In this document: positions 29,421 to 35,919 of the stretch, in pieces
How positions within the stretch are numbered: position 1 is the first letter of the stretch
How the letters are laid out: each line of letters opens with the position of its first letter
From: Streptomyces sp. CA-278952
GTDB taxonomy: Bacteria > Actinomycetota > Actinomycetes > Streptomycetales > Streptomycetaceae
Assembly (NCBI RefSeq): GCF_028747205.1
Contig: NZ_CP112880.1
Coordinates: forward strand, 1,426,001-1,490,000
Reading direction: 5' to 3'
Length of the DNA: 64,000 nucleotides
The notes under the pieces: generated by a model
What the model saw: the letters and a program-made list of their open reading frames with translations, nothing else
Database searches by the model: none
Told to the model about the DNA's origin: nothing
Made by a program: the position numbers and the translations under genes

Positions 29421-30749
29421 ATGGAACTGGGCATCGGCATCGGCTGGCGGCCGGAGATCGCGGACGAGGTGGAGGCGCTGGCGGGGATCGACTGGGTCGA
29501 GGCCGTCGCGGAGAACCTCTGCGACGGCCATCTCCCGGACTCCCTCCTACGGCTCCGGGAACGGGGCGTGCGGGTCGTACCGCACGGGGTGGCGCTCGGG
29601 CTCGGCGGCGCCGACCGCCCGGACCCCGCGCGCCTCGCCTCCCTCGCGGCGCGCGCCGAGCTGCTGGGGACGCCGCTGGTGACCGAGCACATCGCGTTCG
29701 TACGGGCCGGGGGGCCGCTGACCGCGTCGCCGAGGCTGGAGGCGGGGCATCTGCTGCCGGTGCCGCGCACCTGGGAAGCGCTGGACGTGCTGTGCGAGAA
29801 CGTGCGGATCGCGCAGGACTCGCTGCCGGTGCCGCTGGCTCTGGAGAACATCGCGGCGCTGATCACCTGGCCGGGCGAGGAGCTGACCGAGGGGCAGTTC
29901 CTGGCGGAGCTGGTCGAGCGGACCGGGGTACGGCTGCTGATCGACGTGGCCAACCTGCACACCAATCACGTCAACCTCGGCCAGGATCCGGCGAAGGCGC
30001 TGGACGAGCTTCCGGTGGAGGCCATCGCGTACGTCCATGTGGCGGGCGGGGTCGAGAGGAACGGCGTCTGGCACGACACGCATGCCCACCCGGTGACCGC
30101 TCCGGTCCTTCAGGTGCTGGCCGAGCTGCGCTCCCGGGTCGACCCGCCGGGCGTGCTGCTGGAGCGCGACGACGCCTTCCCGCCGGCCGCGGAGCTGGCG
30201 GGCGAGCTGGACGCGATCCGGGCGACGCTGCGGGACGCCGCACCCCCGGCGGAGCAGCGTCCCGCGACCCGGCACGCGGCACGTGACGGGGGCGGTGACC
30301 GGGGCCGTGCGCCCGCCGCCCCCGTGCCCGCCGGGACCCGCGACCGTACCGCCGTCGCGCAGACCGCGCTGCTCTCCTCGCTGGTGGCGGGCACCCCGGC
30401 CCCCGAGGGCTTCGACCACCGGCGGCTGCGGGTGCAGAGCCGGGCGCTGGCCGCCAAGCGCGCGGACGTCGTCGCCAAGGTCGCACCGGAGCTGCCGGAG
30501 ATCCTCGGCGACGGCTACCGCGCCGCTTTCCTCGCGTACGCCGGGGGCCGCCCGATGTCCGGCGGGTACCGGCGCGACGCCCTGGACTTCGCGGAGCACG
30601 TGCTCATCGCGGGCGGTCCCGCCGATCCGGTGGCGCGGCGCCGGCTCACGTACTGGTGGCAGGACCGGTCGGGCGCCCGGCCGCCGCGCCGTACCACCCG
30701 TCTGGTCCGGGCGGCCCGTGCCGCCCTCGTGAGGAAGGGGACGCCGTGA
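29421..30749 (+). CDS. DUF692/MNIO (multinuclear non-heme iron oxygenase) with fused C-terminal domain
   Basis: 442 residues from ATG 29421. Residues 1-275 are the DUF692 TIM barrel with its metal-ligand set visible: H55 ([10 protein letters not shown]), H90 (VTEHIAF), E142 (LALENIAAL), D175 (LIDVANLH), H180 or H183, H206 (YVHVAGG), D219/H221 (HDTHAHP) and E248 (LLERDD). Members (MbnB, TglH, ChrH, BufB) oxidise cysteines of peptide substrates. After a 35-residue linker, residues ~311-442 form a helical SCO6045-type C-terminal domain. It may replace the separate substrate-presenting partner used by other MNIOs (inference). The stop overlaps the start of the next gene (GTGA), which encodes a Cys-rich tail, the obvious substrate candidate. 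Confidence 0.93.
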
Positions 30750-31819
30750 ACGTGCTCGCGCTGCTGGTGACCTTCGCGGTCGTCGTCTCCACCGTGCTCC
30801 TCATCACGAAATCGGCCGTCTCCCGGTCCCGCATCCCGTCGGCCGGCCGTTTCCCCGCCGTCCACGACGTCTACGAGGCGGCCTTCCTGACCGGCGGTCC
30901 GGCCGGGGTCGCGGACACCGCGCTCACCGCCCTGCACACGGACGGCCGGGTGCTCATCGGCGGTCCCGGCATCATCTCCGTACGTTATGCGCAGGCGAAC
31001 GACCCGGTGGAACGCGCGGTGTTCCAGGAGCTGTCCACCGCTCCGAGCGGCGCCCTGCACCTGGTGCGGGACGCGGTGATGCGCCACCCGGCCGTGCAGG
31101 AGATCGGCGACGGGCTGGCGCAGCGGGGCCTGCTGGTTCCGCCCGGCGAGGGCCGCCCCGTACGACGTTGGGGACTGGTCCAGGGAGTGAGCTGCTTCGT
31201 CGCGCTCCCGCTGTCGATCGTCCTCACCGTCCTCCAGTACGTGACGACGGACGTGAGCCTGAGCATGCCGGTCCCGTTCGTCCTAAAGGTGCTGCCCGCG
31301 ATCCTGCTCGGCGGGATCAGCGGGCTCGTCATCGCCTCGGCCGCGGCCAAGCGGATCACCCGAGCGGGCCGCCGGGCCGCCCAGGCATGCCGGGCGGCCC
31401 GGGTCCACCCGGAGACCCCGGCCCACCTGGTCGCCACACGGGGGCTGCGCGCGCTCCCGGACCGGGCGCTCTGGGAGCAACTGGTCGCGGCGAGCCGCCT
31501 GACCGCGTCGGCGAGGCGGTCGCGTTCCGGCCTCGCGGGGAGCGGGCGGCCCGGGTACGCGGGGAGCACGGCGGGGGCGTCGGCCTTCGCGGTGGCGACG
31601 GTCTGGTGCGCCGCCTCCAGTCCCGGCGGCTCCAGCTGCGGAGGTTCCAGCGGGGGTGGCTCCGGATCGAGCTGCGGCGGGGGTGGCTCCGGATGTTCCT
31701 CGGGATCCGGGTGCGGGGGCAGCGGCGGATCGAGCTGCGGCGGCGGCTCCAGCTCGGGAGGTTCGAGTTGCGGCGGCGGCTCGGGCGGGTCGGGCTGCGG
31801 CGGGGGCGGCGGTTCCTGA
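30746..31819 (+). CDS. TIGR04222-type membrane protein with Gly/Ser/Cys-rich C-terminal tail
   Basis: 357 residues from GTG 30746, overlapping the MNIO stop. Membrane segments are at 2-21, ~143-166 and ~178-202. The N-terminal conserved block ([30 protein letters not shown]) matches the TIGR04222 domain. Residues 291-357 are low complexity: 67 residues with 7 Cys (298, 310, 317, 323, 331, 342, 351) spaced 6-12 apart and otherwise only Gly and Ser apart from a single Pro. Such tails resemble ribosomal-peptide precursor regions. Coupling to an MNIO makes oxidative cysteine modification of this tail the leading hypothesis. The membrane anchor would then display the modified tail at the cell surface or release it by proteolysis. 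No leader cleavage motif was recognised. Confidence 0.9.
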
Positions 31820-33674: not shown

Positions 33675-34403
33675 TTATGCGAGCCCGGCCACCAGGTCTG
33701 CGACGCTCTTCCTGCGGCCCGTGTAGAACGGGACCTCCTCGCGCACGTGGAGACGTGCCTCGGAGGCGCGCAGGTGACGCATCAGGTCGACGATGCGGTA
33801 CAGCTCGTCCGCCTCGAAGGCGAGGACCCACTCGTAGTCGCCCAGCGAGAACGAGGCGACCGTGTTGGCGCGGACGTCCGGGTAGCCCCGGGCCATCTTG
33901 CCGTGGTCCGCGAGCATGCGGCGGCGGTCCTCGTCGGGCAGCAGGTACCAGTCGTAGGACCGGACGAAGGGGTAGACGCTGATGTAGTCGCGCGGCGTCT
34001 CGTCGGCGAGGAACGCCGGGACGTGCGACTTGTTGAACTCGGCCGGCCGGTGCAGCGCCATGTTCGACCAGACCGGGTCGAGGGCGCGGCCGAGCTTGGT
34101 GCGCCTGAAGAGGTTGTACGCCTCCTGGAGCTCGTCCGAGGTCTCGGCGTGCCACCAGATCATGAGGTCGGCGTCGGCCCGCAGCCCGGACACGTCGTAG
34201 GTGCCGCGGACGGTGATGTCCTTGGCCGCGAGCTGGTCGAACAGCTCCTGGACCTCGTCGGCGTATCCCGCGCGGTCCAGCGGGAGCACGTCGCGCAGTT
34301 TGAAGACCGACCACAGGGTGTAGCGGATGACCTCGTTGAGGTCCTTGGCCTTCTTGCCGGCGTTCGGACTCTTGCTTGATGTCACAGTCTCAGGGGCACT
34401 CAT
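33675..34403 (-). CDS. hemQ: Coproheme decarboxylase HemQ (hydrogen peroxide-dependent heme synthase)
   Basis: 242 residues. HemQ performs the last step of the coproporphyrin-dependent haem pathway, two decarboxylations of coproheme to haem b using H2O2. Conserved features are [18 protein letters not shown] with the catalytic Tyr (Y140) and the haem-ligand His in [14 protein letters not shown] (H167), plus [19 protein letters not shown]. The protein is cytoplasmic. Four nt separate it from the hemG stop, so hemG-hemQ is an operon. Confidence 0.97.
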
Positions 34404-34407
34404 ACGG

Positions 34408-35919
34408 CTATTGTCCCGCCTCGCTCCCCGTGCCCCGAACCAGGGTCGACGTGGCGATGATCTCTCCCGTCGTCCCCGCCGTCGTCCCTGCCGGGATCTT
34501 CCCCGTGATCTCCCCCGCGATCTCGTCGGCCGCCCGGCGCGCGCTCGCGATGCAGGCGGGGATGCCGACCCCGTCGTAGACCGCGCCGCAGACCCGCAGC
34601 GCGGGCAGCTTGGCGACCTCGTCGCGGATCCGGGCGACCCGGGCGAGGTGGCCCACCGGATACTGCGGCAGGCCGCCGATCCAGCGGGTGACCTCGGTGT
34701 CCACGGGGCGGGCGGTCAGTCCCGTGGCCGCGGCGAGGTCGCGCAGGGAGACGGCGACGAGCTCCTCGTCCTCGCGGTGCAGATGGTCCTCCTCGCCGTA
34801 CCGGCCGACGGAGGTACGGAGCACGAACAGGTCGGGGGCGCTGTCCGCGACCCACTGCCACTTGTTGCTGGAGAACGTGGACGCCTTGATCGTGTGGCCG
34901 TCGACCGGCGGTACGAGGAATCCGGAACGGCCGCGCAGGGCCTCGTACCGCTCGATGTCGGCCCGCCGGAAGGCCAGGGTCACCAGGGCCATCGAGGCGT
35001 ACTCGACTCCGGACAGCTCGGCGGACGCGGCCGGGGACTCGGCGGCCAGCAGCGTGCCGGCGGACCAGGCGGGGGAGGCCAGGACGATGCCGTCGGCGGC
35101 GAGCGTCCGGGTGTCGGTGCGGACGGCCCACCCCGTTTCCGTACGGGTCAGGCCCAGGACGGGGGTCCGGTCGAGGATCTCGCCGCCACCGGCCCGTACG
35201 GCGTCGGCGACGGCCGCGGGGAGGGTGCCGATGCCGCCCTCGACGCCCTGGAAGACGGGTCCGGTCTGCTGCCGGGCGGCGGCCCGCTCCTGGATACGGC
35301 GTACGCCCTCCAGCAGCGGCCCGCCCTCCTTCACCGCCTCGAAGAGCTGGGGGACGGCGGCGCGCATCGAGATCCGGTAGGCGTCACCGGCGTAGACCCC
35401 GCCGAGGAGGGGCTCCACCAGCCGGTCCACGACCTCGCGGCCGAGCCGGTCGGCGACGTACGCGCCGACCGCGACGTCGTCGCCGACGGGGGTCGGGGTC
35501 AGGTCGCGCTCCTCGGCGATCCGGGCCAGGCCCTCGGGGGACAGCACCTCGCCGAGCACCGCCGGGTCGCCGGGGACGCCCATGACGTGCCCCTTGGGCA
35601 TGGGGCGCAGCGCGTCGCGCGTCCACAGCGAGGCGGTGGCGGTGGCGGGCGGCTGGAGGCGGTCGGCGAGGCCCACCTCGCGGGCCAGGGCGACCGCCTC
35701 GGGGCGCCGGGCGAGCATCGACTCGGCCCCCAGGTCGACCTGGACGCCCGCGACCTCGCCGGTCATGAGCTTCCCGCCGAGCCGGTCCGTCGCCTCCAGG
35801 AGGGTGACCCGCAGTCCGGTGGAGACCAGGTGGTGGGCGGCCGCCAGGCCGGCGATGCCGCCGCCGATGACGACGACGTGGCCCGGGGGCGTTTCCGCAC
35901 GCTGTTGAGAACGCTGCAT
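34408..35919 (-). CDS. hemG: Protoporphyrinogen/coproporphyrinogen III oxidase (HemY/CgoX type, hemG in Streptomyces naming)
   Basis: 503 residues. FAD-binding [17 protein letters not shown] is at 15-31, followed by [15 protein letters not shown]. The C-terminal FAD contact region is [21 protein letters not shown]. In actinobacteria with HemQ, this flavoenzyme oxidises coproporphyrinogen III to coproporphyrin III. It is first of two genes on the minus strand, directly before hemQ. It is divergent from the DUF4349 lipoprotein gene across 126 bp, which must hold both promoters. Confidence 0.96.

Follow-up and report, generated by a model that had tools for sequence, protein, structure and literature searches.

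We analysed a stretch of 64,000 nucleotides from Streptomyces sp. CA-278952 (contig NZ_CP112880.1, positions 1,426,001 to 1,490,000), hereafter the window, in which the gene for an oxygenase of the MNIO family (DUF692, PF05114) overlaps that of a TIGR04222 membrane protein ending in a Gly/Ser tail with regularly placed cysteines (Table 1). A first-pass annotation of this DNA had proposed that the pair forms a new cysteine-modification system, and its description of the overlap between the stop of the first gene and the start of the second was exact.

A profile search matched the window MNIO to PF05114 with an E value of 4.7e-77, and this was the only PF05114 match at E ≤ 0.001 in the genome. 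The TIM-barrel fold of TglH and MbnB is likewise present, and the AlphaFold model of the enzyme reached a pLDDT of 92.3 and a pTM of 0.89. According to the accessible text of PMC10880893, the iron ligands of TglH are H71, H107, E151, D184, H216, D229, H231 and E258, together with N187. The ligand residues given in Table 1 fall at these same positions, so that the di/tri-iron set is complete; the annotation had listed all of them but N178. They are also intact in every fused homologue that has a letter there (97 fused rows, with gaps in one). The best NCBIfam model for the window enzyme is MNIO_BufB (NF050167), with 176.4 bits for an equivalog cut-off of 310. PF05114 is common in the genus, with a match in 96 of the 101 genomes of our Streptomyces sample, of which three (G229, G237 and G176) hold extra MNIOs with much higher PF05114 scores (358–371 bits), perhaps true bufferin-type enzymes. 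The MNIO matches of this sample were all fetched but for four with high scores (two in G229, one each in G237 and G176) and seven that were weak or partial.

The C-terminal domain of the enzyme gave no match of its own in a direct Pfam profile search and was assigned to PF26136 from close homologues, at least 120 of which carry both PF05114 and PF26136. Stand-alone members are entitled "SCO6045-like C-terminal domain" in UniRef, presumably the name of PF26136 itself, so the "SCO6045_C" of the first-pass annotation corresponds to a real family. Stand-alone open reading frames (ORFs) homologous to the fused domain lie just downstream of unfused MNIOs at 24 loci; whether placed after an MNIO or fused to it, PF26136 thus has the position of MNIO partner proteins (PME-type 2). 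When the model of the domain was compared with known structures using VIA-align, the best match was TglI, the partner chain of TglHI (chain A), and the second 7dz9_C; both matches are weak, and both come from MNIO–partner complexes. Foldseek alone returned no match below E 1, NGO1945 (3dee) was absent from the VIA-align rows, a sequence search of the PDB found nothing relevant (best E 1.8, a dihydropteroate synthase), and hhalign alignments with three DUF2063 proteins were weak. Because of the 24 stand-alone homologues and of TglI as best, if weak, structural match, the fused domain seems from sequence and model to stand in for the usually separate partner, as the annotation had suggested, and it would be the part of the enzyme that recruits the substrate. 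The weak structural matches and the want of a sequence relative in that PDB search would also suit a docking or dimerisation module with no part in precursor recruitment. We consider this improbable, since PF26136 is a separable gene at the usual site of known partners, its two top structural matches are to MNIO–partner complexes, and DUF2063 has no match in the window genome. PF26136, fused or separate, accompanies 67 of the 69 Cys-tail loci; the remaining two are L103, at a contig edge, and L194.

The TIGR04222 protein scored 158 bits against a cut-off of 43 and is the sole match to that model in the genome at E ≤ 0.001. As first described, its last 67 residues are made of Gly and Ser with one Pro and seven Cys (G35 S24 C7 P1); an eighth Cys, residue 288, lies just ahead of them. 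The eight cysteines follow one another at spacings of 10, 12, 7, 6, 8, 11 and 9, with a coefficient of variation of 0.222, compared with 0.78 in shuffled tails (fraction as low, 0.0002). Over the 58 tails with at least five Cys the value was 0.378 against 0.76, and none of 500 shuffles was as low. Slippage of a repeat unit in the DNA may also contribute to the even spacing. Chance low complexity was ruled out as an explanation of the tail by the Cys spacing and by the Cys-free tails of genomes without MNIO (see below). An argument for selection on Cys positions, from 11 tails of the S. griseus clade (Cys 97.6% identical, Gly 89.1%, Ser 80.4%), was dropped; after realignment with Cys hidden from the aligner, Cys identity was 75.9–79.4%, not above that of Gly.

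Table 1. Features of the MNIO–TIGR04222 locus and the preceding gene (window coordinates)
Feature	Position	Strand	Basis
MNIO (DUF692/PF05114) enzyme with fused C-terminal PF26136 partner-like domain, 442 aa	29421..30749	+	ORF and PF05114
Catalytic TIM barrel, residues 4-270; iron ligands H55, H90, E142, D175, N178, H206, D219, H221, E248	29430..30230	+	
All-helical PF26136 domain (SCO6045-like C-terminal), residues ~306-442; putative fused MNIO partner	30336..30746	+	homology, model
GTGA overlap of TIGR04222 start (GTG) with MNIO stop, 4 nt	30746..30749	+	sequence
Likely substrate: TIGR04222 membrane protein of 357 aa ending in a Cys-rich Gly/Ser tail	30746..31819	+	ORF, TIGR04222 profile
TIGR04222 domain, residues 7-238; hydrophobic stretches ~1-26, 142-168, 170-201	30764..31459	+	
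Gly/Ser/Cys tail with 8 Cys, the first at residue 288 and the other 7 within the last 67 residues	31607..31816	+	
Upstream protein with peptidyl-tRNA hydrolase 2 domain, 252 aa	28474..29232	+	PF01981, 2.9e-10

A survey of tail and enzyme across genomes, as the annotation had proposed, linked the two. We used a class-level sample of 148 genomes, 57 of them with a TIGR04222 match, and called a Cys tail when the last 70 residues held at least three Cys and at least 40% Gly plus Ser. Cys-tailed TIGR04222 proteins were found in 21 of the 57, and 20 of these 21 also have an MNIO, the exception, G067, holding an MNIO fragment at a contig edge. Among the 36 TIGR04222 genomes without a Cys tail, nine have an MNIO, seven of which are Streptomyces. 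The association gave Fisher p values of 1.8e-7 overall and 1.1e-9 outside Streptomyces, both uncorrected for kinship. Seven MNIO-less genomes of one family have TIGR04222 tails that are rich in Gly and Asp and contain no Cys at all.

The same link was seen at the level of loci, where tails were called by another rule, applied to the residues after the hidden Markov model match and used also for the ligand comparison; the named loci overlap the sampled genomes and are not an independent sample. Outside Streptomyces, 18 of the 21 PF26136-MNIO loci have an adjacent Cys tail, carried in 15 cases by TIGR04222 and in three (L082, L089 and L091) by a single-helix protein that replaces it and ends in a Gly-rich tail with 3–4 Cys. 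The single-helix gene lies between the MNIO and PF26136 genes in L082 and L089 and after the PF26136 gene in L091. Since the enzyme is paired in these loci with a tail on another anchor, the anchor appears to be swappable. The three loci without an adjacent tail (L087, L090 and L094) belong to genomes with a Cys-tail TIGR04222 protein elsewhere (G085, G095 and G034, respectively); that of G034 has three Cys but continues into other sequence and fails the last-70-residue rule. The frame of this gene (L106, C1:5645744) extends by eye into a stretch resembling the KR motif of PF26136.

Taken together, these results make it likely, in our view, that the two genes form a protein-modifying unit in which an MNIO with a fused partner oxidises tail cysteines of a membrane protein. 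A cytosolic oxygenase would carry its substrate-recruiting partner as the PF26136 domain, and its substrate would be anchored in the membrane and have a flexible Gly/Ser tail, along which seven to eight Cys in a (S/G)-C-(G/S) context are spaced evenly. Some or all of these would be oxidised, probably yielding a group that chelates metal, by analogy with the action of the related bufferin enzymes on Cys. We infer this chemistry from kinship, BufB being the best, below-cut-off, NCBIfam model of the enzyme and the Caulobacter bufferin carrying Cys-derived thiooxazoles that chelate copper, as stated by Antoine et al. in the accessible text of PMC12452194. A role in metal or oxidative stress may be supposed: S. 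coelicolor SCO6045, the apparent namesake of the domain and, judging by that name, presumably an orthologue of the window MNIO, is up 3.01-fold with H2O2, alongside cysteine-synthesis genes (PMC4991794, accessible text).

Several observations within Streptomyces weigh against this interpretation. The 94 PF26136-MNIO loci of this genus (six truncated at contig ends were left out; Cys-tailed loci were kept regardless of where the contig stopped) comprise 52 with a Cys tail, 36 with only a tail-less TIGR04222 protein and six with neither, so that 42 intact enzymes have no adjacent Cys tail. Ligands are kept in 37 of 37 fused MNIOs next to a tail-less TIGR04222 and in 10 of 10 next to none, these counts including truncated loci and one locus (L090) that is not from Streptomyces. 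In the fragmented assembly G240 a tail with three Cys was found, and no MNIO was detected. The annotation had named lack of co-conservation as the finding that would speak against it, and this is seen within part of Streptomyces only. Many Streptomyces have two tandem TIGR04222 genes, one Cys-tailed and one tail-less; the tail-less paralogue follows the Cys-tailed gene, for example in L149, L163 and L188, and is often the sole copy left. Its first helix is usually followed by a conserved CxxxC, and a further Cys is conserved as well; the three columns are conserved at 0.91, 0.94 and 0.91 in 35 stand-alone proteins and at 0.87, 0.80 and 0.93 in 30 proteins found together with a Cys-tailed one. 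Unlinked TIGR04222 proteins, fetched in part for the genus sample and among the matches listed, have 3, 3, 1, 0 and 1, 1, 1, 1 tail Cys in eight genomes without an adjacent Cys tail. The intact enzymes and these counts imply either another substrate or, in some genomes, the use of unlinked tails.

It could thus be that the true substrate is another protein, either the tail-less paralogue with its three Cys columns or an unlinked peptide, and that the Cys tail is an unmodified thiol brush for metal binding. We regard this as rather unlikely: the Cys tail is what stays constant at the PF26136-MNIO loci outside Streptomyces, the seven MNIO-less genomes have tails without Cys, and in G192, a genome without detected MNIO, there is a TIGR04222 gene whose end resembles that of the tail-less paralogue. 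On an MNIO tree (80 named MNIOs, the window enzyme and five outgroup rows, built by a quick method and with long outgroup branches), the Cys-tail label needs at least 11 changes where shuffled labels need 23.9, with five of the changes imposed by starred branches, and the tail looks ancestral and repeatedly lost. Some losses are probably assembly breaks, since six of the 28 tail-less named loci end at a contig edge within 1 kb of the MNIO. Contigs end within 1.5 kb after the MNIO in eight of the 80 named loci (L281, L286, L299, L304, L309, L315, L272 and L337), perhaps because assembly fails at the repetitive, GC-rich tail. Four Streptomyces loci without a Cys tail (L074, L075, L077 and L083) have a Pro-rich, nearly Cys-free membrane protein with the motif FSGTGL after the MNIO.

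We then considered on which side of the membrane the tail lies, by counting Lys and Arg around transmembrane segments (TM) in 63 of the 67 Cys-tail TIGR04222 proteins, four being skipped for weak segments. On average, 3.30 of them lie in the 15 residues that lead up to TM2, 0.32 in the loop from TM2 to TM3 (mean length 9 residues) and 3.78 in the 15 that follow TM3, and the pattern places the C-terminus inside in 62 of the 63. The three single-helix Cys-tail proteins, with start codons set by eye, have 0, 1 and 0 Lys/Arg before the hydrophobic core and 4, 4 and 6 in the 15 residues after it. This distribution around TM2/TM3 and the single-helix cores suggests that the tail faces the cytosol, which disagrees with the periplasmic location predicted by Antoine et al. 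2025 (PMC12452194, accessible text). Their prediction would fit an extracytoplasmic, bufferin-like chelator modified before export, as would the further hydrophobic segment that precedes the tail, and would flip it, in seven of the 63 proteins (L061, L065, L073, L149, L150, L153 and L154). Given the charge pattern, and since no segment beyond TM3 of the window protein passes 1.6 in a hydrophobicity scan, we see an outside tail as possible rather than probable. With the tail inside, the locus would be one form of a modular system, which we put forward only tentatively: an oxygenase with its own substrate receptor would equip a brush of cysteines, lying against the inner membrane face, with metal-binding groups. 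The brush would be the conserved part, borne by either a TIGR04222 domain or a single helix.

As for the neighbouring genes, similar peptidyl-tRNA hydrolase-like proteins precede the MNIO in five of the seven Streptomyces loci compared by eye. A BLAST comparison of distant families found as shared ORFs, among the matches listed, only MNIO, PF26136, TIGR04222, antisense shadows and one other, about 4.8 kb from the MNIO and common to four loci. On the minus strand, convergent with and adjoining the locus, genes of the chlorite-dismutase and amine-oxidase families (33675–35919) encode proteins that we take to be HemQ- and HemG-like; a similar chlorite-dismutase-like ORF was seen by eye near the MNIO in other Streptomyces loci, and by BLAST, among the matches listed, in three of four.

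The pairing itself is not new: Antoine et al. 2025 had already suggested that MNIOs act on subsets of the TIGR04222 proteins that have Gly/Ser/Cys tails, and list the order "Adjamnio-II (peptidyl-tRNA hydrolase) - MNIO - TIGR04222" (PMC12452194, accessible text). The gene order at our locus resembles it, the upstream protein of 252 residues falling within the 233–256 of adjamnio-II, with PF01981 here and PF01195 cited there. The survey gives PME-type 2 partners for at least 10% of TIGR04222 clusters, many of which appear partnerless; SCO6045 is not in its main text, and in the accessible part no fused partner domain is named and the fusions are of other proteins. Literature searches, most subscription journals being outside their reach, returned no published account of the fused PF26136 domain. 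This domain and the swappable anchor seem to be the new details, and PF26136 is a candidate answer to that gap, as a fused domain in most sampled Streptomyces loci and elsewhere often as a small gene after the MNIO. With one polypeptide for the enzyme and one gene for the substrate, the system should be simple to reconstitute. Should the tail prove to be modified, the range of MNIO chemistry would come to include numerous positions of one integral membrane protein, and this in a genus with PF05114 in nearly all sampled genomes. Altogether, the interpretation of the first-pass annotation is partly supported, Cys modification itself being a prediction from sequence.

Among known systems, the locus is close to the TIGR04222-MNIO clusters of PMC12452194 (accessible text), where an MNIO also stands beside a TIGR04222 protein with an unstructured Gly/Ser C-terminus and interspersed Cys; it differs from them in having a putative fused partner domain, many of those clusters appearing to lack partner genes, and in the predicted side of the tail. 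A TIGR04222 peptide has also been placed in a predicted bacteriocin cluster of Pseudonocardia (PMC5183585, accessible text). Products held at the membrane, as proposed here, are known for the lipoproteins DybA and NedA (DAG-RiPPs; PMC12636315, accessible text), anchored by lipidation through the lipoprotein pathway and not by integral helices, and are predicted for MerC-bufferin fusions (PMC12452194, accessible text). Because of these, and of the cytosolic-face charge pattern, the contrast with described MNIO products drawn by the annotation is weakened. Bufferin systems (BufABC/HvfABC) likewise use an MNIO and a partner on precursor Cys. They differ from the window locus, whose enzyme stays below the BufB cut-off in a genome without DUF2063 match, and their precursor is small and Sec-exported whereas the candidate substrate here is a multi-helix membrane protein. 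TglHI (3-thiaglutamate) and MbnBC (methanobactin) share the catalytic fold and iron ligands, and it is their partner chains that PF26136 resembles best, if weakly, in structure; these systems have separate partner subunits and small peptide substrates.
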